The translations under genes were made by a program, and so were the position numbers. This document shows positions 9,892 through 60,019 of a DNA stretch of 64,000 nucleotides, piece by piece (position 1 is the stretch's first letter; every line of letters starts with the position of its first letter). Origin of the DNA: Lactiplantibacillus songbeiensis (GTDB lineage: Bacteria; Bacillota; Bacilli; Lactobacillales; Lactobacillaceae); contig NZ_BJDL01000001.1 in NCBI RefSeq assembly GCF_005405125.1, forward strand, positions 1-64,000, given 5' to 3'. Below the pieces are notes generated by a model. The model searched no databases. It saw only the letters and a program-made list of their open reading frames with translations, and was not told where the DNA came from.

Positions 9892-10067
9892 GATTGCCGT
9901 CTCCGTTGACCAGCACGTTCGCGGTGGGGCAGACCTGCAGCCAAAGAGCGGTCTGCAGGGCACTTGTTAGCCGAAAATCACGTCTAGCAAGCTGGCCCAA
10001 TCACTAAGGCCGGAAAAATCACCGGTCTAAGTGATTCGACACGGCGAACATGCTGGTCACTGCGACT
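9892..10067 (+). repeat. Structured intergenic element, subtype B, copy B1 (forward)
   Basis: A 176-bp element with nested inverted repeats. The ends pair (GACCAGCACGTTCGC near the left with GGCGAACATGCTGGTC near the right). Inside are a CTGCAG hairpin (around 9943-9968), CTTGTTAG with CTAGCAAG, and AATCACT with AGTGATT. A second subtype B copy lies at 34010-34180 on the other strand. It shares the CGACAC motif and architecture with the more common subtype A. It forms a facing pair with copy A1. Confidence 0.85.
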
Positions 10068-10234
10068 CATATTAGTTTTAATAAGATACTTGATGATAGC
10101 TAATATTACCACCTGCAAAATTAGTTGTTTAACGCCTTGGAATATCATAAGCGATATTATCAAATATTTTAGGAACTAATCTCCCAGCTAAAAATACTGG
10201 GTTTAAGCAATCATTAATTGATACATACTCATCA
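10068..10234. other. AT-rich spacer inside a repeat pair
   Basis: This is non-coding DNA between elements B1 and A1, more AT-rich than its surroundings. I see no gene and no clear terminator. Confidence 0.5.
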
Positions 10235-10388
10235 ATTAACGCCGGGCGGGTCAGAATTGGCTCAGTGGTGTCGTTTTACTTAATCGGTGATTTTCCGATT
10301 TAGTAAAAGCCCGGCTTATGAGACCGCACTATGGCTCATAAATGCGGCCACCACGTTCCAGCCGATTCTGGCCCAACCAGAGTGGCAA
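10235..10388 (-). repeat. Structured intergenic element, subtype A, copy A1 (reverse)
   Basis: A full-length subtype A copy in reverse orientation. In forward reading its hairpins are TTTATGAG/CTCATAA and TTTTACT/AGTAAAA plus AATCGG/CCGATT. The outer arms CAGAATCGGCT and AGCCAATTCTG pair. The arm sequences differ from other copies but pairing is kept. It lies downstream of rqcP, between rqcP and divIC. Confidence 0.9.
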
Positions 10389-10426
10389 ACTTTACCAATC
10401 TCGAGATGTTGTAGCTAGTAAGTAGC

Positions 10427-10705
10427 CTATTGTTCCCGATAGTCCGTCTTGTAGTCTTCGCTAACGATATCGTACATTAGTTCAGCATCGTTTTTCTTAG
10501 TAGTTTCTAGTAATTGGGTCACTTTGACCGTCAACGTCTTGTTCCCAAACGCAATAATCAACTCATCGCCTACGCTAACTGTTGATGATGACTTGCCAAC
10601 TTTACCGTTGATTTGAATCCGCCCTTTATCAGCGATTTCTTTGGCGACGGTGCGCCGTTTAATAATCCGTGAAACTTTCAAAAATTTATCTAAACGCATA
10701 CTCAT
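10427..10705 (-). CDS. rqcP: S4-domain RNA-binding protein RqcP (YabO)
   Basis: A 92-aa single S4 domain ([28 protein letters not shown]) that fits B. subtilis RqcP/YabO in length and sequence. In Bacillus it works with RqcH on obstructed 50S subunits, supporting alanine tailing of stalled nascent chains. Here this function is by homology. The ATG overlaps the stop codon of the upstream flippase gene by one base (TAATG). A second ATG two codons in is a possible alternative start. The mfd-flippase-rqcP-divIC order matches Bacillus (mfd, spoVT, yabM, yabN, yabO) with some genes missing. Confidence 0.9.
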
Positions 10706-12306
10706 TAGTTATGTTCCTTTCCTTTAGCAACAACTTTAATCAGTCGTTTACCATATGGCAGCACTAGCCATTCACGAATCGTGAATAACCGGACCGCCAC
10801 TGAACCGACAACAAACACGATCACCCCAATTAAAACACCAACTAGGGTAATCAAGCCGGCCATCCCGCGATAATTAGCCATCACGGGCCCGACTAAGGCG
10901 CGAATTTCACGACTCGTCAATAAAACAACTAAGCCCATCACACCGCTAACTAACAATAATTTAATCAAATAGCCGCTTTCCAGCAAAACCTGCCGTAAAT
11001 CTTCCGGCGAACCAAGCCACATCACTGCGAACATGACCGCTAAGCTCAGTACAGTCGCTAAGCTGGCACCATTAATGCCGAAATGAACGACCATTTGATA
11101 ATTTAACAACATTTTAACCGCCAAACCAGCAATAATGCCAATAATCATCGCCGTATATTGGTCCAAACTCTGTAAGACACTCGTATAAGTGGTAATCAAC
11201 GCGGCAAACAAAATACTAAAGACATAGACTCGAAGCGCCGTTGTGCCTTCCATCGACCCAAATAACAACCGATTGATCTGTGGCATTAAAGCCACTAAAC
11301 CGACAGTTGCCGCCATTGATAAGGCTAAGCTGACATGGACCATTGCGCGCGTATGCCGCTTGAATTCAATCAATTGCCGTTTGGCCAACGCATTGGTCAA
11401 AGCCGGTAGTAAAGTTGCAGAAAATGACGTTGCCACTACTAATCCCAATTGAACTAGCGGTTGCCCACGGTCATAGACCCCTTTTAACGACTTGGCAAAA
11501 TCAATCGGCAGGCCTTGCCGCGTCAAGCCCCGCATCACCGAAAATGAATCAATCAGCTGCAATAAAATGACGACGGCTGCAACTAAACATAACGTACCGC
11601 CCTCAACTATGAAGCGTTTCGTCAAAGTCCGATAGTCTGGTAATGGCTTGGTCGGTGTTGGTGCAGGGGCTAAGATATGTCGCAATCCAAAGCTGACAAA
11701 GATCAACGACGAACAGATCGCTGCAATTGCCGCTGAACTCATCGCCCAAGTGCCCATATGATAATCGTCCCAGCCCCGATGTAATCCGAAGTATGCAGCC
11801 ATAATAATCACTGCTACCCGCACGGTTTGTTCGATCAACTGAGAAACGGCAGTCGGACCCATCAGGAATTTACCTTGGTAATACCCCCGACCGGTTGCTA
11901 ACCACGGCATGAATAGAAACATCCAAGCCACCGCATCAATAATCGGAGCTAAACGACCATCGCCCATCCGCACCGCCAGCCAATTAGCCCCCAACTGCAA
12001 GCCAATAAACAGCACTAGCGATAGTCCGCTTAAGATATGAAAGGCACGCCGGGCGATCAATGATTGACTCGTCTCATCCGGCTGTTCCGCCACGAGTTTA
12101 GAAATAAAGGTTGGAAACCCATTCAAGGCAAAGGTCATCCCTAAACCATAGATGGGATAAATCTGTTGGTAAACATAAAAACCGGTATTACCAACCATAT
12201 TTTGAAATGGAATCCGGTACACCGCACTCAAAATCTTGGCCACTAATGACGAGATGGAAAGTATTAGGGCGCCCCGGAACATGGTGTTCAGGTGATCTTT
12301 TGGCAT
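10705..12306 (-). CDS. Polysaccharide/lipid II flippase-like membrane protein (MOP family, YabM/MurJ-like)
   Basis: A 533-aa integral membrane protein with about 14 hydrophobic segments. Its start ([20 protein letters not shown], then [10 protein letters not shown]) is typical of the SpoVB/YabM/Wzx branch of the MOP exporter superfamily. These proteins move undecaprenyl-linked sugars across the membrane, and some supply lipid II like MurJ. The exact substrate cannot be read from sequence. The ATG lies 8 nt after AGAAGG. A GTG directly before it is also possible. It sits 19 bp after mfd and overlaps rqcP by one base, so mfd, flippase and rqcP look co-transcribed. Confidence 0.88.
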
Positions 12307-12325
12307 CACAAATCCCTTCTACCGA

Positions 12326-15300
12326 TTACTTGCTCGGTGTGGCCGCAGGTGTCGGCACCAAAATGGCCCCTAACTGTTGCACAAATAATGTCAGCTGATT
12401 AAGCCAAGCATCTTCTTGCATCTGCGGTTGAATCACTAATTTAACCTTCATTTTATCATCATCAATCCCGACTGTCGCTCGTAATTTCGTTTTTGCTAAG
12501 GCCTTAAAGATATCTTTAGTATCTAGCTTAGCCGTTCCTTGCTTGGATAACGTCAGATGTAAGTCACTATCAGTGCGTTGGATCTTTTCAATCAAGGCGT
12601 CATCGGCTAGCATTTTCAACTTACCAACTGCCAACAAACCAGCAACTTCACTCGGATAGTCACCGAACCGGTCAATCAAGTCAGCTTGGACTTCCAAATA
12701 CTGATCGTTATTTTCTAATTGCCGAATCCGCTTGTAGATTTCAATCTTTTGGCGTTCATCTTCAATATAAGTGGATGGTAAGTAAGCTTCAATGCCCAAC
12801 TCAATCGTGGCATCGGTCTTCACTTTAGCTGTCTGACCGCGCTTCTTAGCCACGGCTTCTGATAACATCTGCGTATACAGATCATACCCAACTGAATCAA
12901 TAAAGCCATGTTGCTGCTTACCAAGCAAATTACCAGCACCCCGGATCGACAAATCACGCATCGCAATCTTAAAACCAGACCCTAATTCAGTAAAGTCTTT
13001 AATCGCTTGTAGTCGTTTTTCGCCAACTTCAGTCAACACTTTATTCTGTTGGTAAGTAAAGTACGCGTAGGCAACGCGACTACTCCGTCCGATCCGGCCC
13101 CGCAATTGATAAAGTTGTGACAAACCCATATGATCGGCATTTTCAACGAACAAAGTATTCACATTAGGAATATCGACTCCAGTTTCAATAATGGTGGTCG
13201 TAACCAACACATCGTATTCACCGCGAATGAAGTCGTATAAGATGCCTTCCAATTGTGATTCCGGCATCTGACCATCAATGTGGGCGACCGCCGCTTCCGG
13301 GACTAAAGCTTTAATCTGGGCGACGACTTTATCAATATCGTGGACTCGATTATGCAAGTAAAAGACTTGGCCGTTCCGTTGCATTTCACGTTCAATACCT
13401 TCTTTAACGACGCCAAAGTTTTGTTCCATAACGTAAGTCTGAATTGGATAACGGTTAGTTGGTGGTGTTTCAATCACTGACAAATCCCGTACACCGAGCA
13501 TCGACATGTGCAAGGTCCGTGGAATTGGCGTCGCTGTCAACGTCAAAACATCAACGCTCGACTTCAACTCTTTCAGCCGTTCCTTATGCTTAACGCCGAA
13601 CCGTTGCTCTTCATCAATAATCAACAGTCCTAGATCAGCAAAGTTCACATCTTTAGATAAGAGACGGTGCGTCCCGACCACAATATCCAATTCACCATCT
13701 TTAAGCTGCTTGACAGTTTCCTTCATTTCTTTTCCGGTCCGGAAACGAGATAACATCCCGACATTGACTGGGTAACCTTCAAACCGATTAAGCATCGTCT
13801 CATAATGTTGTTGCGCTAAAATCGTCGTCGGCACAAGAAAGGCGACTTGTTTACCGGCTTCAATCGCTTTAAATGCCGCCCGCAACGCGACTTCGGTCTT
13901 CCCATAGCCAACATCTCCGACCAACAAACGGTCCATTGGCTTGGGCTTTTCCATATCATGCTTGATTTCGTCAATCGACCGCAACTGATCGGGCGTTTCA
14001 GCATATGGAAATTCATTATCGAATTCCGTCTGATAACTATCATCCGGCGCATACGCATAACCAACTTCAGCCTCGCGTTGCGCATATAATTCAACCAACT
14101 CATCCGCGATATCTTCAATTTTAGCCGCAACTTTGCGCTTAGCCTTGGTCCATTCAGTACCGCCTAACTTGTTAATCTTCGGTGTCTTGGATTCTGACGA
14201 AACGTACTTCTGAACGAGATTTAGCTGGGTCACCGGAATAAAGATCTTCGCATTATTCTGGTAAGCGATTGTAATGTAGTCTTGATGGACACCATCGACT
14301 TCCAGCGTCTCCATCCCGATATACTTCCCAATCCCATGATTAACGTGCACGACGTAATCACCAGGCTTTAAGTCGGTATAACTCTTCAGCCGTTCCGCAT
14401 TGGCTAACGTTTGCCGCCGAGGCCGCTTCTTGGCCACTTTTTTAAACATTTCTTGTTCGGTCACAACAACTAAATGACCATCTGGAAATTCAAAGCCGTT
14501 CTGCAAAGAACCTTGGACAATCTGTACCACGCCGGTCTGCAAATTTTCCGCCTTAGTCATGACCGCGTCAATCTCGAAATCATCTAAGGTATTGCTGACC
14601 TTGGTCAACCGCTCCGCTTCTGAGACCATCAAGACGACGGTCTGATTAAGCTTATGCCAGCGGTCTAATTCCGTTTTCAGGGCTGGCAATTGACCGAAGA
14701 ACTCTTGCATCGGTCGTGTCCGAACATTGGTAATCTGAGCTAAACGCACATTACCAATCCCTTTTTGAAAGAGTGAGACTAGTAACTGAGCATGGGCATC
14801 GTCCTTCAACAAATCTCGGATATCGTTACCATAGTCAGCCGTTGATAGGACCCGATGATGTGCCAATTGATCGGTGACCCAATTGGCTTCTTCTTGTAAC
14901 AACTGTTGCTCGCCATCCAAAATCCGCGAATACTCATCAAATAGCACGACCCCATCGGTTGGTAGATAATCCAAAATACTGGTTTTACTACCATATAAGT
15001 AGGACCCATACAGCAACAAGTCATTACCGATTAACCCTTTGCGCATATCTGACAACGGTTGCGCCAAGTTATCGGCTAAGGTTTGCCGATCAGCGGGATC
15101 TAGCTGCTTACTTTCGGCTGCCATCGCTTTGGTCAATCGTTCTGCCCCGGCCGTCATCATGGCTTGGGTCAAGATAAAGTCCGTAGCCGGCAACACGGTA
15201 AACGTCTCTAAGTTGTCAACCGAGCGCTGTGTTTCAGGATCAAAGTACTTCAACGTATCAATTTCAGTGTCGAACAAATCTAATCGTAACGGATAGTCGG

Positions 15301-15856: not shown

Positions 15857-15873
15857 GGCGACTTCCTTCCTAC

Positions 15874-16434: not shown

Positions 16435-16440
16435 GAACAC

Positions 16441-16568
16441 TTAACTCCTCTAGGTTGTTGACATGCAAAACAGGCCGAATCAGGCTCACCCTGATTCGGC
16501 AGTGCCGAACGAACTTGTTCACCAGTTCACTAAACCAACTGGTCTCATTTTTCAGTGCAATTAGTATA
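16441..16568 (-). promoter_or_regulatory. pth-mfd promoter and structured leader
   Basis: The minus strand has an extended -10 (TGG-TATACT, 16563-16568) with no good -35. The roughly 120-nt leader contains ACCAGTTGGTTTAGTGAACTGG and a perfect 11-bp stem GCCGAATCAGG/CCTGATTCGGC (16474-16500). Just upstream, TTCGGC could instead pair with the same GCCGAA, so two folds exclude each other. No T-box motif is visible. Confidence 0.55.
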
Positions 16569-16676: not shown

Positions 16677-16717
16677 GGAAGCGTTGGAAACAATAAATTT
16701 TCGTTATGAGAGGATGA

Positions 16718-17697: not shown

Positions 17698-17739
17698 TGG
17701 CAGTGTCGTCCTGGTTTGGATGACACTGCTTTTTTTAGT
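17698..17739 (+). terminator. ldhL terminator
   Basis: GGCAGTGTCGTCC pairs with GGATGACACTGC around a TGGTTT loop, followed by seven T. It begins 12 bp after the ldhL stop. Confidence 0.93.
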
Positions 17740-17743
17740 TCTG

Positions 17744-17887
17744 AATTGCCGCTCCGGGCGGACTGGAGTGATGCTGGAACGTGGTGACCACGTTTGAAAG
17801 CCTGGGGGACGGGCTTTGACTAAGGCCGGAAAATCACCAGCCTAAGTCAAACGACACCACTGAGCATCATCCAGCCCGCCTGCGCTA
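17744..17887 (+). repeat. Structured intergenic element, subtype A, copy A2 (forward)
   Basis: A forward subtype A copy belonging to a sequence variant in which the outer arms read GGACTGGAGTGATGCT and AGCATCATCCAG rather than the usual AGAATCGGCT/AGCCAATTCT. The middle hairpin is shortened here. It lies right after the ldhL terminator and forms a facing pair with A3. Confidence 0.87.
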
Positions 17888-18052
17888 TTTAATCTGATGA
17901 TCGTGATTGGCTATGTAGTCAATGAGCACGTCGTCATACTAGTAGTGGCTAGTTGCTAAAATATTGGAAAGCCATTTCTAATTTTGAAGTCTTTAAATAG
18001 TTCGCCGATTAAGAAACCCAATGACCCAACTGAGTCGTAACGCCCCCGTTGC
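17888..18052. other. Spacer between repeat copies A2 and A3
   Basis: AT-rich non-coding DNA. I see no gene, promoter or terminator that I could defend. Confidence 0.5.
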
Positions 18053-18206
18053 TTAACGCCGGGCGGGCCAGAATTGGCTCAGTGGTGTCATTTATCTTAG
18101 TCGTGGGTTTCGACTTAGATAAAGCCCGGCTTGCGAGACCGCTCTTCGGCTCGCAAACGCGGCCACCACGTTCCAGCCAATTCTGGACCAACCAGAGTGG
18201 CAAATT
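18053..18206 (-). repeat. Structured intergenic element, subtype A, copy A3 (reverse)
   Basis: A full subtype A copy in reverse orientation. In forward reading the middle hairpin is TTTGCGAG/CTCGCAA and the last hairpin TTTATCTAAGTCG with CGACTAAGATAAA. Short open frames on both strands here are produced by the repeat and are not genes. Confidence 0.9.
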
Positions 18207-18308
18207 TAACTTACTCGATCTAACATTAGCACGTGCTACTAATTGTTAATTAACTTTTTTCTAACAACGCTTCCAGCCCTCACGACAACCGGGTTGAGCT
18301 CACTTTTT

Positions 18309-21130: not shown

Positions 21131-21139
21131 GCTATCTTT

Positions 21140-21177
21140 CCTCCTAGTTTTTTTACGTGGGATGGTTACGAACCACG
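21140..21177 (-). promoter_or_regulatory. preQ1 class I riboswitch controlling queT translation
   Basis: On the minus strand a P1 stem CGTGG (21173-21177) / CCACG (21156-21160) encloses a loop TTCGTAACCATC. An A-rich tail TAAAAAAACTAGGAGG follows. This is the preQ1-I H-type pseudoknot layout, in which the ACTA tail pairs back into the loop. The tail runs into the GGAGG ribosome binding site of queT, so ligand binding should hide it and shut off translation. The downstream gene supports the call. Confidence 0.8.
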
Positions 21178-21197
21178 AAAATTAACGAGCGGATTCA

Positions 21198-21226
21198 ATC
21201 GTAGCACGACTAATCAGTCGTCGCAA
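21198..21226 (-). promoter_or_regulatory. queT promoter
   Basis: The minus strand has -35 TTGCGA (21221-21226), a 17-nt spacer and extended -10 TGC-TACGAT (21198-21203), placed so that the transcript would begin shortly before the preQ1 aptamer. A CGACTGATTAGTCG dyad lies within the spacer and might be a binding site. Confidence 0.65.
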
Positions 21227-21240
21227 GGTGGATTTCAATT

Positions 21241-21393
21241 TGTCACTCTGGTTGGGGCAGCATCGGCTGGAACGTGGTGGCCACGTTTTTGAGCCACAGA
21301 ACGGTCTCAAAAGCCGGGCTTTATCTAGGTCGAAAAATCATCGACCAAGATAAACGACACCACTGAGCCAATGCTACCCCGCCCGCCGTTAGC
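21241..21393 (+). repeat. Structured intergenic element, subtype A, copy A4 (forward)
   Basis: A full forward copy. Outer arms AGCATCGGCT/AGCCAATGCT, middle hairpin TTTTTGAG/CTCAAAA and last hairpin TTTATCT/AGATAAA with GGTCGA/TCGACC all differ from other copies in sequence but keep pairing. It lies upstream of queT and pairs with A5. Confidence 0.9.
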
Positions 21394-21492
21394 TAGTCGA
21401 CAACTTTAAATTGAGTATGACTTGCGTAACAGTCTACACCAAAGTTCTTATCTGAGCACTAATTACCAAATAATCTCAAGAAAAACAATTGT
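21394..21492. other. Spacer between repeat copies A4 and A5
   Basis: Non-coding, about 100 bp, AT-rich. I see nothing else in it. Confidence 0.5.
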
Positions 21493-21651
21493 AGCGTAGG
21501 GCGGGCTGGATGATGCTCAGTGGTGTCGTTTGACTTGGGTCGGGTGACCTTTCCCGGCCCTAGTCAAAGCCCGGCTTGGAAGACCGCTTCTCAGGCTTCC
21601 AAACGTGGCCACCACGTTCCAGCATCAGTCCAGACCAACCGTAGCGGCAAC
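21493..21651 (-). repeat. Structured intergenic element, subtype A, copy A5 (reverse)
   Basis: A full reverse copy of the GACTGATGCT arm variant. In forward reading its last hairpin is TTTGACT/AGTCAAA with GGGCCGGG/CCCGACCC, more GC-rich than in other copies. It ends 8 bp from the argF stop codon and so lies in the 3' untranslated region of the arginine operon. I see no separate terminator there. Confidence 0.9.
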
Positions 21652-21658
21652 AATCAGC

Positions 21659-22678
21659 TTAAAACAAACTATCTGGAATAAATAGATCGCCTAATGTGGC
21701 GGCCATGATGGCTTTAATCGCGGGCAAGCGATTGCCGGCCTCTTCGAAGACGACAGCTTGAGGACTAGTGAAGACTTCATCAGTGATTTCAATGGCATCT
21801 AGATCATATTTCTGTCCCAACGCCGCGCCAGTTATGGTTTGATGATCATGAAAGGCCGGCAGACAATGCATGACGATTGTCTCAGGTTGACCCGTTGCAG
21901 CCACTAGATCAGCATTGATCTGGAACGGCAATAATTGTTTAATTCGTTCCCCGTAATCGACTTGTTCGCCCATCGAGACCCAAACATCGGTATATAAGGC
22001 ATCGGCACCGGCGACTGCCACTTGTGGATCTGCGGTAATTAAGATGTCACTACCAGATTGTTGCGCGTAAGTCTGCGCCAAGGCCACCACATCAGCGGCC
22101 GGCTGTAGCCCAGTTGGTGCGCCAATATGAATATTGACACCCAGCATCGCACTAGTCACTAACAAGCTATTCGCCATGTTATTCCGTCCGTCCCCCACAT
22201 AGGTCAATGTTAAGCCTTTCAGATGACCAAAGTGGGCTTTCAAAGTCATGAAATCCGCAATCATTTGTGTTGGATGCCACTCGTCGGTTAAACCATTCCA
22301 CACCGGAACCCCACTATCCTTAGCCAGCGTTTCGACTGTCGACTGGGCAAAACCCCGAAATTCAATCCCATCAAACATCGAGCCCAACACTTTGGCTGTA
22401 TCACTGACTGATTCCTTTTTACCAAGTTGAATATCATTTTTACCCAAGAACTCAGGATGAGCGCCGAGATCATTGGCCGCCACGGTAAACGCTGAACGCG
22501 TCCGCGTCGACGTCTTTTCAAATAGCAGCGCAATATTTTTCCCTTGTAAATAGGGATGGGGAATATGTTGCGCCTTTAAGGTCTTCAAATGCAAGCCGAA
22601 ATCAATCAGATAAGTTAACTCGGCGGGCGTAAAATCAATTTCTTTTAAAAAGGACTGGCCATTAAAGTGTGTGTTCAT
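21659..22678 (-). CDS. argF: Ornithine carbamoyltransferase (anabolic)
   Basis: Makes citrulline from ornithine and carbamoyl phosphate. The 339-aa protein carries the carbamoyl-phosphate motif STRTR (in [12 protein letters not shown]), the [13 protein letters not shown] segment and the ornithine-binding HCLP motif (MHCLPAFHD). The ATG overlaps the argD stop by four bases (ATGA) and follows ACGGAGG. It is last in argC-J-B-D-F and next to carAB, so it is anabolic. A catabolic arcB would sit with arcA and arcC. Confidence 0.96.
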
Positions 22679-31249: not shown

Positions 31250-31300
31250 CTAAACCCTTTTACTGCTAGCCGGTATCTGCCAGATAGGGTATTTACACGC

Positions 31301-31430
31301 TTAAGTGCTAGTTGGTTTAAATTGCCACTCTGGTTGGGCCAGAATCGGCTGGAACGTGGTGGCCACGTTTTCGAGCCACAGAGCGGTCTCGAAAGCCGGG
31401 GGTTATCTAAGTCGGAAAATTGGACGACTA
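31301..31430 (+). repeat. Structured intergenic element, subtype A, copy A6 (forward, 3'-truncated)
   Basis: Begins with the extended left end (CTTAAGTGCTAGTTGG, then GCCACTCTGGTTGGGCC) and is normal through the middle hairpin TTTTCGAG/CTCGAAA. It breaks off within the last hairpin and lacks the CGACACCACTGAG module and right arm, so it could not form the outer stem. It lies just after carB. Confidence 0.87.
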
Positions 31431-31442
31431 AACTTTAACAAC

Positions 31443-33680: not shown

Positions 33681-33784
33681 AACCCCATCGCCTTTCAAAA
33701 TCTGATATTTCCAATTTACCACAGTCGCCAGCAATGTAACAGACCGTTTAACACGCAATCTTTTCACGATGGCATGAAACTAAA

Positions 33785-33945
33785 TTGTCGCTCCGGTTGG
33801 TCTGGACTGATGCTGGAACGTGGTGGCCACGTTTGGAAGCCTTAGGAGCGGTCTTCCAAGCCGGGCTTTGACTAAGGCCGGCAAGGTTCACCGACCTAAG
33901 TCAAACGACACCACTGAGCATCATCCAGTCCAGCCTACGCTAAAT
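33785..33945 (+). repeat. Structured intergenic element, subtype A, copy A7 (forward)
   Basis: A full forward copy of the GACTGATGCT variant. Outer arms CTGGACTGATGCT and AGCATCATCCAGTCCAG pair almost perfectly. The middle hairpin is TTTGGAAG/CTTCCAA and the last TTTGACT/AGTCAAA. It lies upstream of acpS and pairs with B2. Confidence 0.9.
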
Positions 33946-34009
33946 AACTATTACAGTTTAGTTTTATTCGCTGCTAATTCCCATAAATACTTAAAACAAC
34001 CCAAGCAAA

Positions 34010-34180
34010 GTCGCAGTGACCAGCTGATTCGCCGTGTCGAATCACTTGAACCGGTGATTTTCCGGTTTTAGTGATTGGGCCAGCTTGTTAGACATGTTCT
34101 TCGGCTAACAAGTGCCCTGCAGACCGCTTTTGGGCTGCAGGTCTGCCCCACCGCGAATCGGCTGGTCAACGGAGACGGTC
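34010..34180 (-). repeat. Structured intergenic element, subtype B, copy B2 (reverse)
   Basis: The second subtype B copy, on the opposite strand from B1 (9892-10067). Its ends GTGACCAGC and GCTGGTCAAC pair. The distal hairpin in forward reading is AATCACTAAAACCGG with CCGGTTCAAGTGATT, where B1 has AGGCCGG with CCGGTCT. Compensating changes are thus seen in B as well. Short open frames spanning A7 and B2 are not genes. Confidence 0.88.
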
Positions 34181-38386: not shown

Positions 38387-38429
38387 GCGTTTCTATTTTT
38401 TAATTTTGAGTGGCTTAGTTGGCGGAAAA

Positions 38430-38456
38430 TGACCACTCTGGTTGGTCCATAATCGG
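38430..38456 (+). repeat. Remnant of subtype A element (left end only), copy A8
   Basis: About 26 bp matching the left end of subtype A (CCACTCTGGTTGG, then TCCATAATCGG), after which the match stops. It looks like what remained after a deletion. No right end is nearby. Confidence 0.65.
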
Positions 38457-38558
38457 TTTGACCACAACCCCTAAGCTAATAAGTAGTGATTAACTAATTT
38501 CAAAATAATACATGATCTAACAATAGTCACAATGACCAAATTAACAGCTGGCCAAACA

Positions 38559-45996: not shown

Positions 45997-46113
45997 AATA
46001 TTACGCTCCTTTGCCCTGAATCATTTGCTGAAACAGAGATTATCATAGTTTTAATCAACGCTAAATATCTTATCATGAATCCTAGCCCAGCGTCAAGCCT
46101 CGCAACCAGTCAA

Positions 46114-47427: not shown

Positions 47428-47561
47428 GGTGGTCGTTTTGCCGAAACGTGTTCGGTAAGCCTGGGGATTCCGCTTGCTACGCCAAACAACCATCCGGAAA
47501 AACACCGGATAATTATTTGGCTAGGCAATGCTCACCCCCACCCGGCTTACCTCACACTCTA
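47428..47561 (-). repeat. Structured element type D, copy D1 (downstream of murA)
   Basis: A 130-bp element matching copy D2 (49083-49213) in its unpaired parts (CCGCTTGCTACGCCAA, GGCTAGGCAATGCTC, TCACACTC). Its arms differ in sequence but still pair: GCCAAAcAA..ATCCGG with CCGGATaaTT.TTTGGC, and outer GTAAGCC with GGCTTAC. It begins within the last two codons and stop of murA and ends just before rho. Confidence 0.85.
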
Positions 47562-48826
47562 ATTTCGTCAGCGGCAATCTCCACGTCAGCCCCCAGCGTA
47601 TGCAACTTATCAATCACGCGGTCATAGCCACGTAAAATGTTGTCAGCGCGTGAGATTTCGGTGGTGCCACTAGCAATTAGACCAGCAATCATTAAGGCCG
47701 CGCCAGAACGGATTTCGCCCGCTTCGACATGTGCCCCCTGTAGGTGGGAAGAGTGTCCCACCACGATTAAATTATCTTGAACACGGATATCCGCGCCCAT
47801 TTTGCGTAATTGTGCAATATGCTGCGTTCGTTGCGGATAGATCGTGTCAATCACGACACTATTGCCGTTAGCCCGTAATAATAACGGCGTAATCGGTTGC
47901 TGCAAATCAGTCGCAAAACCAGGATACGTCATCGTTTTTACACGTACTGGATTAAGGTCACTAACCCGTGGAACGTAAATACTGTCTTCGTTAATTTGTA
48001 ACCCAACACCCATTTCGAGCATCTTGGCCGTAAACGATTCCATATGTTCAGGAATGACATTCTTAAGTAAAATGCCGTCACCAATGGCCGCAGCCAATGA
48101 AAGGTACGTTCCAGTCTCAATACGATCTGGGATAATGGTGTGCGTGGCCCGTGCGCGTAGAGAGTCAACGCCTTCAATCCGGATGACATCGGTCCCGGCG
48201 CCACGAATCTTCGCACCCATGTTGTTTAAGAAAGTCGCCACATCAATGATTTCAGGTTCTTTGGCGGCGTTTTCAATCGTCGTTGTCCCATGCGCTTTAA
48301 CGGCGGCTAAAATAATGTTAATTGTCGCCCCAACGGACACCACGTCTAAGAAAATGCGGGCGCCATGCAACCCTTCAGTACCCGTTGAAATGAAGACGGA
48401 GTCGTTTTTTTCAACGACATTCGCCCCGAGTGCTTTAAATCCTTTAATGTGTTGATCAATCGGCCGAGGACCAATATTGTCCCCGCCTGGAAAAGTGACG
48501 GTTGCCCGGTTAAAACGGCCGAGTAATGCGCCCATGAAATAATAAGATGCACGCAGGCTTTTAATTGCGTGACTTGGTAATTCGGATTCTTCAATATGAG
48601 TTGGATCAATCGTTAATACATCGTTTTCAAAAGTGGAATGGACATTCATCGATTCCAAAATAATTTTTAAATTGTGAACGTCTAAGATGTGCGGAACCGT
48701 GTCAAATCGGACCGGAGTGTCTGCGAGAATCGCAGCAGGAATCAGTGCGACGGTACTATTTTTTGCGCCACCGATCGTCAATTCCCCAGAAAGTCGTTTT
48801 CCGCCATGGATAATCATTTTTTTCAT
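47552..48826 (-). CDS. murA: UDP-N-acetylglucosamine 1-carboxyvinyltransferase (MurA) with Asp at the catalytic Cys position
   Basis: Transfers enolpyruvate from PEP to UDP-GlcNAc, the first committed step of peptidoglycan synthesis. The 424-aa protein has the two-lobed EPSP-synthase fold, starting MKKMIIHGGKRLSGELTIGG with AKNSTVALIPA. The active-site loop reads FPGGDNIGPRPIDQHIKG. Residue 116 is Asp (codon 48479-48481) where E. coli MurA has Cys115, the target of fosfomycin. An Asp here occurs in some naturally resistant bacteria and keeps activity. Low-GC Gram-positives often carry two murA genes, and only one is in the window. It lies upstream of rho, as in Bacillus (murAB-rho region). 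Confidence 0.96.
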   Translation of the reverse strand: MKKMIIHGGKRLSGELTIGGAKNSTVALIPAAILADTPVRFDTVPHILDVHNLKIILESMNVHSTFENDVLTIDPTHIEESELPSHAIKSLRASYYFMGALLGRFNRATVTFPGGDNIGPRPIDQHIKGFKALGANVVEKNDSVFISTGTEGLHGARIFLDVVSVGATINIILAAVKAHGTTTIENAAKEPEIIDVATFLNNMGAKIRGAGTDVIRIEGVDSLRARATHTIIPDRIETGTYLSLAAAIGDGILLKNVIPEHMESFTAKMLEMGVGLQINEDSIYVPRVSDLNPVRVKTMTYPGFATDLQQPITPLLLRANGNSVVIDTIYPQRTQHIAQLRKMGADIRVQDNLIVVGHSSHLQGAHVEAGEIRSGAALMIAGLIASGTTEISRADNILRGYDRVIDKLHTLGADVEIAADEIRV

Positions 48827-49082: not shown

Positions 49083-49213
49083 GTTAGTTTTGTTGAAACG
49101 TGTTCACTCGGACTGAAGGCTCCGCTTGCTACGCCAAGTCAACTAGCCGGAAGATCACCGGCTAATTGACTTGGCTAGGCAATGCTCGCCTTCACCCGTC
49201 CTCGTTCACACTC
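49083..49213 (-). repeat. Structured element type D, copy D2 (pyrG 3' untranslated region)
   Basis: The second type D copy, beginning directly after the pyrG stop codon and ending before its terminator, so it is transcribed. The main hairpin is GCCAAGTCAA..AGCCGG with CCGGCTaaTTGACTTGGC, and the outer stem GGAC..AAGG with CCTT..GTCC. All these arms differ from D1 while pairing is kept. Confidence 0.85.
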
Positions 49214-50863
<1,650 letters not shown>

Positions 50864-50980: not shown

Positions 50981-50995
50981 GTCAAATCAGTCAGC

Positions 50996-51607
50996 TTACT
51001 TTTGCTCTTCGTCGTCATCATCATCGAAGTCGTCATCATCGTCATCGTTTAATTCAGATAATTGGCCTTCGATGCCATCTGGTAAAGTTTCATCCGCCGC
51101 GTCGTCATCACTATCATCCACACCGGCAAGTTCGTCATACTTACTTGCACTGGAATCATCGTCATCGTCGCTTTCGGAATCGTCTTCATCTTCGTAATTG
51201 TCGTCGTCTTCGGGATCATCGTCATCGTAATCAATGACATCATCATCGTCGCCGGCGTCAGCCAAGAAGGCGTTAACCTTCTTACGCTTCTTGCGTTTTG
51301 GCCGATCATCGTCTTCATCATCATCGGTATGAATCACAGCTTCATCAATGGATTCAAATGGGTACCATGCACGCAGGCCCCACATATTGTCACCGAGCGA
51401 AATGAAACTACCGTCAATATTTAGATCGGTATAAAATTGTGATAAACGCTCCCGAATTTCTTCGTCGCTTTTACCCAAATAAGATTGCACAGCGTTCGCC
51501 AAATCGGCAAACGCCATCGCGTCACCATGTTGTGACAAAATTGCATGCGCAACCTCGATTAAAGATAATTCGGACTTTTTCTGTCCATCAAATTGTTTTA
51601 GTTCCAA
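50996..51607 (-). CDS. rpoE: DNA-directed RNA polymerase delta subunit
   Basis: A Gram-positive polymerase subunit that speeds recycling and adjusts transcription to NTP levels. The 203-aa protein has a folded N-terminal HARE-HTH domain (1-90, [20 protein letters not shown]) and an extremely acidic tail (from about 100 to the end) made almost only of Asp and Glu with a KKRKKVN basic patch between. The acidic tail is longer than in B. subtilis (173 aa). The start is probably TTG (codons MELKQFDG) about 11 nt after AAAGGA. Confidence 0.95.
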
Positions 51608-52092: not shown

Positions 52093-52440
52093 GAATTCTA
52101 CCTCCAGAATGTGTGGCTGCCAACCCGATTGCCACACACGATTAGTTTCCTAAGTGGCTTGTATCCGTTCATATAGTGGCTTTCAATTTGTCGTTCCGGT
52201 CGAACTGGACTTAATGGCAGCCCGAGCCTCCAAACGACTGAATCATCACTATTCAAAATATGAGCCTTACAAACCACACGTCTTCTTATCTGACAATTCA
52301 GTCTTAAAAACACTAACTTGTCATTAAAGATAACTCCTTAACAATTATAAGCTATCTGAACGAAAATGACTAAAAATCCACCCAAGTCGGGGAATTCCCC
52401 TGCGGACTAGTAAGGTTTCGAGTATAATTAATCAGGAACA
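52093..52440. other. Non-coding region with a possible decayed repeat end
   Basis: No gene seen. At about 52188-52215, TTGTCGTTCCGGTCGAACTG, then GACTTAATGG, resembles the left end of the GACTGATGCT variant of subtype A but soon loses similarity. It may be a decayed copy. Confidence 0.35.
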
Positions 52441-52625
52441 GCATGCTTGATGCTAGTTGAAATTGCCGCCTGCCGGTTGTTTCCTAAAACACTGGAACGC
52501 CATGGGTTATTTTGAAGCCAAAAATGAGTCTTCAAAACTGACCTTGGCCTAAGTCCGAGCAGACTACTCGCACTAAGGTCAACGACACGGCTGAGCATTT
52601 TAGGAACCAACGGCTCGGCTAAATT
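52441..52625 (+). repeat. Structured intergenic element, subtype C, copy C2 (forward, complete)
   Basis: The only complete subtype C copy. Outer arms CCGGTTGTTTCCTAAAA and TTTTAGGAACCAACGG pair. Inside are TTTTGAAG with CTTCAAAA, and GACCTT with AAGGTC plus CGAG/CTCG. The shared module AACGACACGGCTGAGC sits at the same place as CGACACCACTGAGC in subtype A. It forms a facing pair with A9. Confidence 0.85.
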
Positions 52626-52662
52626 TGTGGTCGACACAATAGATACATTAATTCACGTTAAT

Positions 52663-52838
52663 TAACGTCGGGCGGGCCAGAATTGGCTCAGTGGTGTCGT
52701 TTATCTTAGTCGGTGATTTTCCGACTTAGATAAAGCCCGGCTTTCGAGACCGCTCTTCGGCTCGAAAACGCGGCCACCACGTTCCAGCCGATTCTGGCCC
52801 AACCAGAGTGGCAATTTAAACTAACTAGCACCAAGCGT
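52663..52838 (-). repeat. Structured intergenic element, subtype A, copy A9 (reverse)
   Basis: A full reverse copy including the extended end (AATTTAAACTAACTAGCACC). Forward arms are CAGAATCGGCT/AGCCAATTCTG, TTTTCGAG/CTCGAAA and TTTATCTAAGTCGG with the CCGACTAAGATAAA arm. It lies between the DUF1934 gene and lipL. Confidence 0.9.
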
Positions 52839-52943
52839 AGGAACCGCACTTGCTGTTAATCACACAAGTATTTTTGAATCGATCAACAACTGGCATCATG
52901 CCAATCATCATTCTAATAACCAACTTAACGAGGTGAACGCGTT

Positions 52944-53750: not shown

Positions 53751-53775
53751 TGCTTAACGAACGGAGGAACTTTAC

Positions 53776-55122: not shown

Positions 55123-55132
55123 GAGGAACTTT

Positions 55133-55942
55133 ATGTCAACCGTTAAACTCATTGCCATCGACATGGATGGTACCTTATTAAACGAACACAGTGAACTCAA
55201 TCCCGCCACCATTGACGCCGTCCAAGCAGCGCGTGATCAAGGCATTAAAGTCGTCATTTGTACTGGTCGCCCACTCAGCGGCGTCAGCCCATTTCTAAAG
55301 CAGTTGCATATTGATGGTGATGACGAATACGCGATTACGTTCAATGGTTCCATGGCCCAAACGATTAGTGGTCGCATTATCACCAGCCATACGTTGACCC
55401 ATGACGATTACATCGACTTAGAAGCCCTAAGCCGGAAATTAGGCATTCATTGTCACGTGGAAAGTGAAGATCATATCTACACGGCTAACCGGAATATCAG
55501 TCCCTATACCGTTGGCGAGAGTGCGCTTGTGAATATGCCAATTCGTTACCGCGCCCCTGGTGATATGCGGATCGATATGCCAGTTGTTAAAGCCATGTTC
55601 ATTGATCAGCCGGAATTACTAGCAGCCGCCGCTGAAAAAATTCCACAACGCTTTCATGACAAATACGCTATTGTGAAGTCGGCACCGTATTTCTTAGAAT
55701 TCATGAATCCGAACGCTAGCAAAGGGTCAGCCTTAAAGGATTTAGCCGAACGGTTGAAGCTTACCGCCGATAATGTGATGGCGATTGGGGATCAAGGAAA
55801 TGATTTAAGCATGCTGAAATACGCAACCAATAGTGTGGCAATGGGCAATGCCATTCCACAAGCGAAAGCCTTAGCCAAGTTTGAAACCAAGACGAATATT
55901 GAAGACGGCGTCGCTTTTGCGATTCGCAATTGGGCACTATAA
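55133..55942 (+). CDS. Cof-type HAD-IIB sugar-phosphate phosphatase
   Basis: A 269-aa cytoplasmic phosphatase. HAD motif I is DMDGTLL (residues 10-16), motif II ICTGRP, and motifs III/IV are the Lys region and AIGDQGNDLSML. The Cof/YidA-like cap domain lies between. Such enzymes remove phosphate from sugar phosphates or flavin precursors, so the specific substrate is unknown. The ATG follows AGGAGG. It is last in lipL-HD-HAD. Confidence 0.92.
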   Translation: MSTVKLIAIDMDGTLLNEHSELNPATIDAVQAARDQGIKVVICTGRPLSGVSPFLKQLHIDGDDEYAITFNGSMAQTISGRIITSHTLTHDDYIDLEALSRKLGIHCHVESEDHIYTANRNISPYTVGESALVNMPIRYRAPGDMRIDMPVVKAMFIDQPELLAAAAEKIPQRFHDKYAIVKSAPYFLEFMNPNASKGSALKDLAERLKLTADNVMAIGDQGNDLSMLKYATNSVAMGNAIPQAKALAKFETKTNIEDGVAFAIRNWAL

Positions 55943-55952
55943 TGAAATAGAT

Positions 55953-56007
55953 CAAAATAAAACCACTCAAGCGTCTGTAACTTAACGCTCGAGTAGTTTT
56001 ATTTTGA
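55953..56007. terminator. Bidirectional terminator at 55953-56007
   Basis: AAAATAAAACCACTC...GCG pairs with CGC..GAGTAGTTTTATTTT. It ends the lipL group rightward and the lipoprotein gene leftward. Confidence 0.88.
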
Positions 56008-56020
56008 TTCTAGCTTAATT

Positions 56021-57007
56021 TTATTCAAATTCACCAGTACTCATGTTTTGCTTTAACACGCTGCCACTAGCTGGATAGTACCGGTAAATATCTGTCAGAT
56101 TCGTCACATTTTCATCGTTGCTATCATGCATGACTTCAATCTGATAATACTTGCTCGTTTCCTTAGTGACATTGAACTGATCGTTTTTTTCAAAAGTGAC
56201 TCCGGCCGCGGCCCGAAAGTTGCTTAGCACTTGCTTCGTGGTCATGCTACTCTCACTACCACTGGTGGCACTATCAGCCTGACTAGTGGCCGTGCTGTCG
56301 CTGGCATCACTTGTCGCAGTGGTCGCACTACTACTGCTAGTACTGCTGGCATCTACCGACGAGTTACTACTCGTATGGTCACTTTCGGCAACGGCGGAAC
56401 TATCACGACCCGAACTCGTCGATTGCGACGCCTCATAGTTCATAATAGCAGCCTTCATGGCGGTAGTCTTCTGTTGTAAATCCTTAATAACTGGGTGCGT
56501 TGGTGAAATCTTATCTAACTTATCGATATTCGTTTTGGCAGCGGCTAACGCATGTACGCTCATCTCATCACGGGCACTGTTATAGTAACCGTTAGCCAAC
56601 TTAACTTGTTGATATTGCTTGGTTAAAGCGGCTTTAGCCTGCGTAAACGATGCATCCGTTACGAGTTGATAATTCGCTAACGTATTAAAATACGACTTAG
56701 CCTGACTTAATTGATTTTTGTTGAGCGCTGTCGCGGCTTTTTGATAATGCCGTAATCCCGTTAAGAGATTTTTAGCAGCGGTATCCTTCGTATTAGCCGC
56801 TGATAAGGTGTTGATAGCAGCTTTAATTTGATGATGCGAAATTTGTTGATCTGCCTTGGTTAAAATCTTAGCTGAGCCACTGGCGGCAGCTGATGAAGTC
56901 GAGCTGTCACTAGAACTACTAGTCAACTTCGCACAGCCTGACAATGTGATCAATCCAAATAAGATGATCATCATCAGCCCCCAACGTGGTCGATGCGCTT
57001 GATCCAC
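56021..57007 (-). CDS. Secreted lipoprotein with Ser/Thr-rich linker, unknown function
   Basis: A 328-aa lipoprotein. It has a basic N-terminus, a hydrophobic helix and lipobox LSGC with the lipidated C25, so it is anchored on the outer face of the membrane. Residues 27-46 are Ser-rich. Residues 50-190 are helical with TPR-like spacing (NTLSAANTKDTAAKNLLTGL, then YQKAATALNKNQLSQAKSYF). Residues 190-255 are almost only Ser, Thr, Ala, Asp, and a small C-terminal domain of about 70 aa follows. The role is unknown. The start is GTG, 8 nt after AAGGAGG. The linker probably spans the wall. Confidence 0.82.
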   Translation of the reverse strand: MDQAHRPRWGLMMIILFGLITLSGCAKLTSSSSDSSTSSAAASGSAKILTKADQQISHHQIKAAINTLSAANTKDTAAKNLLTGLRHYQKAATALNKNQLSQAKSYFNTLANYQLVTDASFTQAKAALTKQYQQVKLANGYYNSARDEMSVHALAAAKTNIDKLDKISPTHPVIKDLQQKTTAMKAAIMNYEASQSTSSGRDSSAVAESDHTSSNSSVDASSTSSSSATTATSDASDSTATSQADSATSGSESSMTTKQVLSNFRAAAGVTFEKNDQFNVTKETSKYYQIEVMHDSNDENVTNLTDIYRYYPASGSVLKQNMSTGEFE

Positions 57008-57080
57008 GGCGAATCCCTCCTTTTAACTCAATCCTCATTATACCATGGCAAACTGAGAACCAAAGTCTTTTAAAGATTCC

Positions 57081-58112
57081 TTAAATTATCTTAACTAACC
57101 ACGCCACGTACCATAAACTTAAGATGATGACAGCACTCAGATTAGACCAGCGATACATCACGATTAACGCTAAATATTCACGAAACATCGCAAACGGTAA
57201 ATAATACCAAGGCGTGGTAGCGCCCATCCCATAAACGTTTAATCGTAAGTGCCGCGCTAGAATATTGGCCCGCAACACGTGATAATCACTCGTCACCATC
57301 ACCGCCCGATAAAACGGCTGCTGCCGAACAATTAAGGCATGTGAAAAACGCAAATTTTCAGCGGTCGACGTCGACCGATTTTCTTCTTTAATCACATCTA
57401 ACGGAATCCCTAGTGCCACTAAATAATGACGCATCGCGGTACTTTCTGGCATGACCTCATCACTACCTTGACCACCAGAGACAATAATTCGAATCGCATG
57501 ATGATCTTTTTCACGTTGGGCTCGATAAATCTTGGCTGCCGTTTTCAAACGGTAACTCAACGTTCGCGTTGGTCGGCCATCCGGCATCAACCCAGCCCCT
57601 AAGACGATAATATCATCAATTGGTCCAATTCGGCCTAACCGCGTCGTGCCACAAGCCACTAGATAAGCCAAAAAACTGAACGTAAAATAACCCGTTAAAA
57701 TAAACGCCAGTCCCAATGCTTTCCACAACCACTGCCAATGCCAGGTCAGTGCGTTAATCACCGCTGACACCAGCATTAAGACCAGCAAAAAACCGACAAT
57801 CGCCAGTAACGTATAGTGTAAGTGCCAGCCTTCTTTGTGTAGCAGACGATAACTATAACGCACAAAACTAATCGCGACAACTAAAATGACGATTGGCAAA
57901 ATGATATAGCCAGCCAGCTTCAAGCCAACAATCAAAAACTGCCAAAACGGACTAGCTTGGTCGCTAACGGAACGGTAGCCGGCAAGTGCCAAACCAGCAA
58001 GTGCAATTAAAAATAAGTGGCCAGTCAACCAGCGGCGGCGATCCGTCAGTTGCAATGTCACCGCGCTCACTAGTGCAAGACTACCCCAATAAAACCAATC
58101 CACGTTAACCAC
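57081..58112 (-). CDS. YdcF/ElyC-like membrane protein (DUF218)
   Basis: A 343-aa protein. About five to six membrane segments fill residues 5-155. A DUF218 domain follows: DIIVLGAGLMPDGRPTRTLS, RLKTAAKIY, VSGGQGSDEVMPES, ENRSTSTAENL, VTSDYHVLRA. One or two final hydrophobic stretches complete it. E. coli ElyC and SanA in this family affect the cell envelope, but no reaction is established. It is transcribed leftward toward the lipoprotein gene, 73 bp away with no terminator, so co-transcription is likely. Confidence 0.88.
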   Translation of the reverse strand: MVNVDWFYWGSLALVSAVTLQLTDRRRWLTGHLFLIALAGLALAGYRSVSDQASPFWQFLIVGLKLAGYIILPIVILVVAISFVRYSYRLLHKEGWHLHYTLLAIVGFLLVLMLVSAVINALTWHWQWLWKALGLAFILTGYFTFSFLAYLVACGTTRLGRIGPIDDIIVLGAGLMPDGRPTRTLSYRLKTAAKIYRAQREKDHHAIRIIVSGGQGSDEVMPESTAMRHYLVALGIPLDVIKEENRSTSTAENLRFSHALIVRQQPFYRAVMVTSDYHVLRANILARHLRLNVYGMGATTPWYYLPFAMFREYLALIVMYRWSNLSAVIILSLWYVAWLVKII

Positions 58113-58212
58113 CCTCTTTTTGTTCTATCAGTTTTAATTATAGCTAATTTCAGTGGTCGATACCAATTGCGAGTTTAATCAGTGCATGTTGTTAGTCAAT
58201 TAATAAATTTAC

Positions 58213-58390
58213 ACTTAGTACTAGTTGGCTTAAATTGCCACTCTGGTTGGCCCAGAATCGGCTGGAACGTGGTGGCCACGTTTTCGAGCCACAGGGCGGT
58301 CTCGAAAGCCGGGCTTTATCTAAGTCGAAAACCACGACTAAGATAAACGACACCACTGAGCCAATTCTGGACCGCCCGTCGTTAATTAAC
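58213..58390 (+). repeat. Structured intergenic element, subtype A, copy A10 (forward)
   Basis: A full forward copy with the extended left end (ACTTAGTACTAGTTGGCTTA). Arms: CAGAATCGGCT/AGCCAATTCTG, TTTTCGAG/CTCGAAA, TTTATCTAAGTCG/CGACTAAGATAAA. It lies beyond the prs terminator, while reverse copy A11 lies upstream of prs, so prs sits between a facing pair. Confidence 0.9.
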
Positions 58391-58424
58391 GGACATTAGA
58401 AAAGGCCCATTAATACATTGTGGC

Positions 58425-58460
58425 AAAAAAAGACACGTTCAGCTTACGCCAAACGTGTCT
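58425..58460 (-). terminator. prs terminator
   Basis: Read leftward, AGACACGTTTGGCG pairs with the GCTGAACGTGTCT arm and is followed by seven T, 13 bp after prs. Confidence 0.9.
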
Positions 58461-58473
58461 TAAATTATTAGTC

Positions 58474-59454
58474 TTAGTTTTCTTCGTTGTGGAAACGATT
58501 CTTGAATAATGGACTAACCGGTTTGTTTTCATGGATAAACTTAATCGCTTGACCCATTAATTGACCAACTGAAACTTGTTCAATCTTGTCAATTTGCTTT
58601 TCAGCTGGTAAAGCGATTGAATCAGTCACAATTAACTTCTTAATTGGTGACTTTTCAATTCGTTCGATAGCTGGGCCTGAAAGTACGGGATGCGTACAAC
58701 TAGCATAAACATCTGTCGCACCAGCATCCATCAAGGCTTGGGCACCTAATGTAATGGTCCCAGCGGTATCAATCATATCATCGATCATGATCGCGCGTTT
58801 ACCCTTCACATCACCGATAATATTCATCACTTCGGCCACATTAGCACGTGGACGACGCTTATCAATAATAGCAATTGGGGCTTTCAAGAATTCAGCCAAT
58901 TTACGAGCCCGTGTCACCCCACCATGATCTGGTGAAACAACAACGGCATTTTCATCTAAATGATGAGTAAGGAAGTAGTCAGCTAACAGTGGCGCACCCA
59001 TTAAATGATCCAAAGGAATATCAAAGAAACCTTGGATTTGGGCAGCATGTAAGTCCAATGCTAAAATCCGAGTTGCCCCGGCAGTTTCCAACATGTTGGC
59101 AACTAACTTAGCGGTAATTGGTTCCCGTGAACGGGCTTTCCGATCTTGACGGGCGTACCCATAATAAGGGATGACCACGTTGATCGTCTTGGCACTGGCC
59201 CGCCGTAACGCATCAATCATAATCAATAATTCCATCAGGTTGTCATTAACAGGAGCGGAAGTTGATTGAATGATGTACACTTGGTCACCACGAATACTTT
59301 CCTCAATGTTAATGCGAATTTCGCCGTCACTAAAGCGATCGACTGATGTCTTACCCAATTTAACACCAACGGCTTCAGCAATTTTTTCTGCCAATGGTTT
59401 ATTTGAATTCAAAGCAAAAATCTTTAACTTTGGATCAAAATACTGTTCTGACAT
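58474..59454 (-). CDS. prs: Ribose-phosphate pyrophosphokinase
   Basis: Makes PRPP from ribose 5-phosphate and ATP, feeding purine, pyrimidine and histidine paths and serving as ligand of PurR in this window. The 326-aa protein has the PRPP loop [13 protein letters not shown], the divalent metal site [14 protein letters not shown] and the flexible loop [12 protein letters not shown] chose the ATG of MSEQYF. The ATG four codons earlier is part of its own GGAGG site. The prs-glmU-purR order is the standard Firmicutes arrangement. Confidence 0.97.
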
Positions 59455-59841
59455 AATTTCCTCCATTCGAAAATTTATTCTTACTAAATAATATGCATTT
59501 TAGCGTTGAAAATCAAGCCCCCTTAGCAGTTATAAATTGCGTCAGACTGGGCTGGAGGCGAATACTTCGGGTTTTCAGCGGGTTTGACTTTTTAATATTA
59601 AAGTTTCGTGAGGCTGATTTTATTGATTATGCCTATTAGCCCGGTCCTAGCGTAGGCCTCGATGGTAACGGTACCACCAAGTTAGATCAATTTAAAGTCT
59701 AACAACTGACTTATTGATACCCAACTACCTTTAAAACCCGAACATTTTTTGTAATTTAGCGAACTTATAAATTTTCCAATTCAGTCGTTTCCTAAAATGC
59801 TGATTGCAATGACTTAACGTTTGTTTACAAATAGCCAATAT
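59455..59841. other. Non-coding region upstream of prs
   Basis: No gene seen. A possible subtype C trace, GTCGTTTCCTAAAATGCTG, lies at about 59787-59805 without further match. Otherwise the DNA is AT-rich. The prs promoter should lie here, but I could not pick one with confidence. Confidence 0.4.
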
Positions 59842-60019
59842 TTAACGTCGGGCGGGCTAGAATTGGCTCAGTGGTGTCGTTTATCTTGGTCGGTGATTTT
59901 CCGACTTAGATAAAGCCCGGCTTGGAAGACCGCACTCTGGCTTCCAAACGTGGCCACCACGTTCCAGCCGATTCTGGCCCAACCAGAGTGGCAACCTATA
60001 TCCAACTAGTACCAAGCGC
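59842..60019 (-). repeat. Structured intergenic element, subtype A, copy A11 (reverse)
   Basis: A full reverse copy with extended end (CCAACTAGTACCAAGCGC). Forward arms: middle hairpin TTTGGAAG/CTTCCAA (like A7), last hairpin TTTATCTAAGTCGG with the CCGACcAAGATAAA arm, outer arms CAGAATCGGCT with AGCCAATTCTA. It lies between prs and the glmU terminator. Confidence 0.9.

Follow-up and report, generated by a model that had tools for sequence, protein, structure and literature searches.

REP/BIME elements with RAYT lie between genes as paired inverted palindromes, each REP being a single hairpin of 20–40 bp, and we know of no paired three-way-junction arms in the Correia elements of Neisseria. 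The repeats analyzed here, found in a 64,000-nucleotide stretch of Lactiplantibacillus songbeiensis (positions 1 to 64,000 of contig NZ_BJDL01000001.1; hereafter, the window), form a family of structured intergenic elements that differs from REP/BIME in its junctions of ~140 nt and its DDE-type ends. Prokaryotic miniature inverted-repeat transposable elements (MITEs), as covered in the available part of one review (PMC10969869), share with this family terminal inverted repeats (TIRs) in common with insertion sequences (ISs), target duplications, intergenic location, no need for an open reading frame (ORF), and predicted folded transcripts. The present family differs in having two internal three-way-junction arms and compensatory evolution across genera, and that part of the review makes no mention of compensatory change, IS982, or Lactobacillus, although it does report that a MITE, the Correia element of Neisseria, inverts in place. 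The BOX, RUP, and SPRITE repeats of pneumococcus are likewise described, in the sections of PMC3049150 consulted, as modular, structured, proposed to be mobile, and enriched between convergent genes, but their sequence and architecture are different, and no covariation analysis was found in those sections. Similarly, bcr1–bcr18 of Bacillus cereus are intergenic and MITE-like or structured, with about half of their copies occurring in transcripts, but belong to another genus and have another sequence (PMC3446304, in part).

Our preferred reading, to which we assign a probability of roughly 0.58, is that the copies in the window are the arms of non-autonomous mobile elements whose fold has been selected as a single, outward-running strand, probably as RNA. 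Orientation and alignment of 19 TIR-bounded copies together with the window copy at 52443–52838 showed that the unit consists of a left arm (A), a short AT-rich center, and an inverted right arm (C). The arms are ~140 nt each and face one another, and a complete element is about 385–406 bp long. An earlier, sequence-only reading had treated the repeats as separate structured elements of subtypes A, B, and C. Folded copies are indeed present, but they are not free-standing hairpins: A together with C (or B) makes up the two arms of a single element. The complete 396-bp element at 52443–52838 comprises a right arm of subtype C (C2; 52444–52644, + strand) and a left arm of subtype A (52656–52838, − strand), both with their terminal repeats, facing one another between IS982-type inverted repeats. 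It is flanked by the 9-bp sequences AGGAACAGC (52434–52442) and AGGAACCGC (52839–52847).

The A+C elements are MITEs with IS982-type TIRs, because such TIRs stand at their ends and target duplications of 7–9 bp accompany a minority of copies. They are also short and numerous, contain no transposase gene, and have their TIRs in common with an insertion sequence. A search with the TIR, ACGCTTGGTGCTAGTTG, plus one extra 5' base (≤3 mismatches) returned 225 sites genome-wide (114 forward and 111 reverse), compared with 3 and 0 for the reversed control. Sixty distinct TIR-to-TIR elements (41 from the L. songbeiensis genome, G000; 13 from a sister genome, G193; and 6 from two further genomes, G125 and G149) ranged from 94 to 406 bp, the longer class mostly being 385–406 bp and the shorter ones internal deletions. 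Exact duplications of 7, 8, and 9 bp were present at the ends of 8, 7, and 6 of the 60, respectively, the others having none or decayed ones. Allowing one mismatch, these numbers were 10, 12, and 9, against 0.20, 0.08, and 0.00 expected from mismatched flanks. A 3,447-bp TIR-to-TIR interval on contig C1 was considered as an autonomous element and rejected, as it holds ordinary host ORFs (ammonium-transporter-like and dehydrogenase-like, named by reading).

A potential source of transposase was found in G125, another species of the genus, which has two intact 958-bp insertion sequences with ends identical to the ACGCTTGGTGCTAGTTG of the MITE. The transposase scanned belongs to the IS982 family (219 bits; cut-off, 130). 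Its only relative found in the L. songbeiensis genome is decayed (59% identical, 9 stops), with a TIR-like sequence matching the left end. Across the genus, 12 of 21 genomes have an IS982 relative at E ≤1e-10. IS982-like ends (ACGCGTGGTGCTAGTT) are also common elsewhere in the family. A search for a RAYT/IS200-like transposase had been proposed previously as a check; the ends found are of the IS982, DDE type, and no search aimed at RAYT was made. Differences between species are consistent with mobility. One element is a clean insertion in G193 relative to L. songbeiensis, with flanks overlapping by 8 bases, and sites corresponding to five window loci (9892, 17736, 33780, 43557, and 58210) are short and without arms in G125, as are three of them (9892, 17736, and 33780) in G149. 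Based on these comparisons (shared ends, duplications, the intact insertion sequence of a relative, and species differences), an IS982-family transposase would move the ~396–406-bp MITE in trans, leaving duplications of 7–9 bp.

Each arm folds as a three-way junction consisting of P1, an internal loop, and P2, followed by P3 and P4. Read from the TIR inward, P1 is CCAGAATCGGCT/AGCCAATTCTGG and variants, and the internal loop separating it from P2 is GGAAC/TG. P2 is GTGGTG/CACCAC in left arms and GCCATG/CACGGC in right arms. P3 (GAGCC...GGTCTC) has a bulged base, P4 has a conserved A.A mismatch, and CGA then leads back to P2. Hence, the CGACAC-NN-C module noted previously corresponds to the junction strand and one side of P2, although the three-way junction itself, closed by the outer stem and GTGGTG/CACCAC, had not been described. 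The module is present, but taken alone is weak evidence (14 occurrences compared with 5.7 expected; 1 of 100 shuffles reaches 14). Full units are far above chance, with a best E-value in the window of 5.7e-35 using a covariance model (R1) derived from an alignment of 41 arms, which matched subtypes A, B, and C and so supports their proposed homology. The two B copies were matched in the P2–P4 part only (E 2.9e-7 and 8.9e-6). At least 150 arms in the L. songbeiensis genome (3.03 Mb, 50 contigs) scored with R1, and single arms (five arms) fold 4.8–9.9 standard deviations below shuffles on both strands.

The arm pairs quoted in the sequence-only reading are legible in the sequence, and its claim that compensating change maintains the fold was supported by tree-based tests in four alignments. 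These used two tree-based nulls written for this analysis (not R-scape), at E <0.05 and within the proposed structure. In a joint alignment of left and right arms (A1; 52 pairs), 91.1% of cells were paired, changes occurred on both sides in 29 of the 52 pairs, and 9 and 11 pairs were significant under the two nulls. None of 500 shuffles reached the observed values for four of five measures, and one reached the fifth (pair types). Left arms alone yielded 6–8 significant pairs of 48, and an all-pairs test of right arms alone (29 sequences) yielded none. Results were similar for 149 distinct arms from L. songbeiensis and G193 (A2; from the best 150 of 165 matches), with 93.2% paired, both-side changes in 31 of 52 pairs, and 8–9 significant. 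Significant pairs rose to 28–30 of 52 in A3, which drew 32 arms from 15 further genomes of the genus and included no arm used to build R1 (92.3% paired, both-side changes in 46 of 52), and to 35–37 of 52 in 54 distinct arms from 13 genomes in seven genera (A4; after removal of 6 low-scoring rows and 10 duplicates from 70). An all-pairs test of A4 identified 30 significant pairs, of which 28 lie inside the structure, while the remaining two (36–80 and 37–79) extend P3. The recurrence of this fold in other genera suggests a function for the folded molecule itself.

To determine which strand is folded, changes in pair states were reconstructed by parsimony, with ties broken at random, for internal and terminal branches (eight rows in total). 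Read in the forward direction of the sequence-only reading, changes from Watson-Crick to A.C exceeded those to G.U in all eight rows. The ratio was 12.6:3.3 on internal (P = 0.02) and 48.4:22.2 on terminal branches (P = 0.003) for left arms, and 11.5:1.2 (P = 0.003) and 22.3:6.2 (P = 0.004), respectively, for A3. Unpaired columns showed no excess of transitions in that direction. As an A.C in this direction is a G.U on the complement, it is the complement, each arm being read from the center outward, that has its pairing spared. We therefore conclude, with moderate confidence, that selection acts on one single strand running outward, opposite to the original forward reading, and this folded strand probably acts as RNA. 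The bias is hard to explain by cruciforms or palindrome correction alone. It narrows, without settling, the earlier proposal of RNA, single-stranded DNA, or cruciform DNA, given that wobble-type changes favor one strand and a cruciform needs both.

Where several arms lie together, they face each other. Among 85 clusters (in the window and stretches of L. songbeiensis and G193), 25 have one arm, 50 two, and 10 three, and all 60 multi-arm clusters are facing (forward, then reverse), as are 13 of 13 distinct multi-arm loci in other genomes, three of which have two or three tandem arms before the facing one. In G080 (L352 and L353), two or three tandem arms followed by one facing arm resemble modular BOX elements, recalling their repeated boxB modules (described in part of PMC3049150). 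Under the preferred reading, the fold would be held by selection on one strand, read from the center of the element outward, most likely in RNA form within read-through transcripts. With the arms facing each other, transcription across the element from either side would yield one arm in the outward sense, so that the element could work both ways and the facing pair would make it independent of orientation. A stable, perhaps protein-bound, RNA structure might then shield or process transcripts, making insertions tolerable to the host.

Several results weigh against this reading. Neither right arms (7.9:5.2 and 30.4:29.0) nor other genera (A4; 16.8:10.8 and 20.1:12.1) show a significant strand bias, and G.U is rare on either strand (39 G.U and 99 A.C among 2,755 cells in A4), which is less than a structural RNA would lead one to expect and would fit a DNA role or palindrome correction. 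Alignments A2–A4 were fitted to the model, so their paired percentages lean towards it, although the two extra P3 pairs do not. The full window element contains no promoter- or terminator-like site, and of 150 arms, only 2 have a T-run 3' of the fold when read outward and only 1 when read inward. Regarding mobility, clear end duplications are restricted to a minority of copies, an IS982-like end was recognized near few arms of other species, and G149 carries 58 arms yet has no IS982 match (E ≤1e-10).

The main rival explanation is a role for the arms as DNA in recombination, namely as hairpins, in single-stranded DNA or in a cruciform, whose shape would be recognized by a transposase or recombinase, much as integrases recognize folded attC sites. 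We consider this rather unlikely, but it would account for the near-total Watson-Crick pairing (2,515 of 2,755 cells in A4), the occurrence of arms in facing pairs, and differences in orientation between species. Twenty sites in L. songbeiensis with flanks inside the G193 stretches could be judged. Nine have the same orientation in both genomes, five are inverted, four are absent from G193, one is a symmetric pair, and one has a second element nested inside. The five inversions fit in-place inversion, although some may reflect independent insertion. The element at 52443–52838, for example, occupies one position in both species with nearly identical flanking duplications, but is turned round, and for the inverted unit at 33780–34178, identity of the flanks with G193 ends within a few bases of the ends of the element. 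At one plantarum-like locus, the element is present, inverted, or absent between genomes. In the two inversions inspected most closely, however, the whole element including both arms was turned, indicating exchange at its outer ends and not inside the arms. In addition, the IS982 transposase is of the DDE type and is not known to need folded ends, a cruciform would not prefer one strand as the wobble pattern does, and no recombinase was linked to the arms, though no search aimed at recombinases was made. Regarding nesting, a comparison of L064 3763–3951 with L193 shows that G193 has one element lying within another, of which L. songbeiensis has the outer one alone.

Alternatively, the elements could be ordinary MITEs in which the fold arises incidentally from inverted repeats, or bidirectional transcription terminators. 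Consistent with this are the TIRs, target duplications, and copy number, as well as a more frequent occurrence in convergent (20/46) and divergent (15/39) than in tandem (30/145) gene gaps (chi-square P = 0.003; gaps defined by a crude ORF caller, with gap length not controlled and 9 clusters overlapping a called ORF by >60 bp). We nonetheless judge it improbable, as the arms are internal, do not arise from the TIRs, and are also conserved in genera lacking such TIRs. There is also no terminator signature, and the bidirectional terminator was ruled out by the lack of a GC-rich hairpin and T-run pattern (the 2 and 1 of 150 arms above).

Slightly more doubtful still is an origin without selection, whereby template switching in near-palindromes corrects one arm of a stem from the other. 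Hairpin stems are short-range inverted repeats, and single-step double changes do dominate on internal branches of A4 (205.9 between Watson-Crick pairs compared with 27.6 from Watson-Crick to G.U or A.C). Template switching sits poorly, however, with the covariation of P1 and P2, whose strands are ~100 nt apart in A4, with the conservation across seven genera of letters in loops and junctions (GCTGGAACG, CTGAGC, and others), and with a strand bias opposite to that of unpaired columns. Membership of an already named RNA or repeat family is very improbable, for although similar kinds exist (BOX, ERIC, Correia, and bcr1–bcr18), the window and four related loci had only sub-threshold matches in Rfam 15 and none at gathering score, and the family is not named in the open-access literature searched (which mostly excludes subscription papers), as the earlier reading had anticipated.

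The intra-genome family reported earlier is real, but its fold occurs far beyond this genome and beyond the IS982 MITE. At E ≤0.001, every genome of the genus examined except G211 and G071 has arms (19 of 21, L. songbeiensis included), and a survey of 131 genomes of the family with stricter filters found them in 24, representing 10 of 40 genera, own genus included. Of eleven named genomes examined, arms were present in L. pingfangensis (60) and Loigolactobacillus bifermentans (12), and none were found in Ligilactobacillus animalis, Lactobacillus taiwanensis, L. gigeriorum, Weissella paramesenteroides, Leuconostoc inhae, Vagococcus allomyrinae, two Enterococcus, or one Streptococcus. Outer sequences vary among these relatives. 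Two plantarum-like genomes have a unit of about 780 bp whose inner ends differ and which in part carries an IS982-like end on the outside, CATGATTAAAACGTGCC is an end type of the plantarum group, and copies in G128 have sharp borders with outer ends that are different again. As related elements combine these arms with different outer sequences, the arms predate any single set of ends, and they seem to be what is conserved, whereas the transposase ends seem to be interchangeable. Parts of one plantarum-group arm were found on 22 plasmid records, and a G049 arm had three weak plasmid matches. The full window element had no match in plasmid or phage searches, nor did a G111 arm or a G128 arm pair in plasmids.

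A broader reading, which we offer tentatively and hold to be possible but less likely than the one preferred above, is that the ~140-nt three-way junction in facing pairs is a Lactobacillaceae-wide module, selected as one strand, and the true unit of inheritance, outlasting exchanged transposase ends in at least 10 genera. Its folded strand would be recognized by a host or transposon factor, and the facing pair would make it indifferent to frequent inversion. MITEs are usually viewed as ends around disposable filler, whereas in this family it is the filler that has been conserved, and it shows compensating changes in the seven genera examined in detail. If the outward strand does work as RNA, industrial lactic acid bacteria would carry an unrecognized RNA module in hundreds of copies per genome. 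Inversion at 5 of 20 sites makes orientation-independence directly testable, and a covariance model now exists for annotating the family.

Profile and covariance searches of the window located ten A arms and two C arms, which together with two B copies and one A fragment make 15 copies or fragments, in line with the at least fourteen counted previously. They sit between ORFs, as proposed, save that one arm overlaps the end of an ORF by 12 bases at 21659. Besides the complete MITE, two left A arms are solitary, one at 59836–60019 (−) with a terminal repeat and the other, in a truncated element at 58211–58392 (+), with a degenerate one. The 3' part is decayed in a right arm (C1; 43558–43687, +, 28.5 bits) that retains its terminal repeat and in a truncated left A arm (31299–31433, +, 46.3 bits), while a left A fragment at 38427–38461 (+) corresponds to a full arm in G193. 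The other copies are facing pairs. A B arm with an additional hairpin (about 9892–10067, +) faces a left A arm without a visible IS982 repeat (10232–10398, −). A left-type arm lacking the IS982 repeat and part of P3 (17736–17892, +) faces a left arm at 18046–18221 (−), a left arm at 21225–21397 (+) is paired with a left-type arm at 21492–21670 (−), and a left-type arm at 33780–33948 (+) faces the second B arm, also with an additional hairpin (about 34009–34178, −). IS982-like ends were unrecognizable at these four elements (9892–10401, 17736–18221, 21225–21670, and 33780–34178) and in several other species. One protein neighboring the elements is 99% identical to that of L. pingfangensis, with DNA identity around there of 67–88%. 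Many element ends lie within ~150 bases of contig ends in the L. songbeiensis assembly (e.g., C9:124, C17:60, C18:59, C29:141, and C30:141), and hence the repeats probably break assembly.

Another structured repeat pair, "D" (47435–47568 and 49087–49222), has a CCGGAAAA-CACCGG-type hairpin like P4 but was not matched by R1. A D-like sequence seems, by eye, to be inserted where the P4 of an arm belongs in Ligilactobacillus salivarius plasmid pSF118-44 (L290, ~3078–3240). The window also contains low-complexity TCATCGTC-type repeats at 50991–51348, within a reverse ORF of 203 aa, and, at gathering score, a PreQ1 riboswitch at 21138–21182 (−) and an L31 ribosomal protein leader at 46006–46038 (−).

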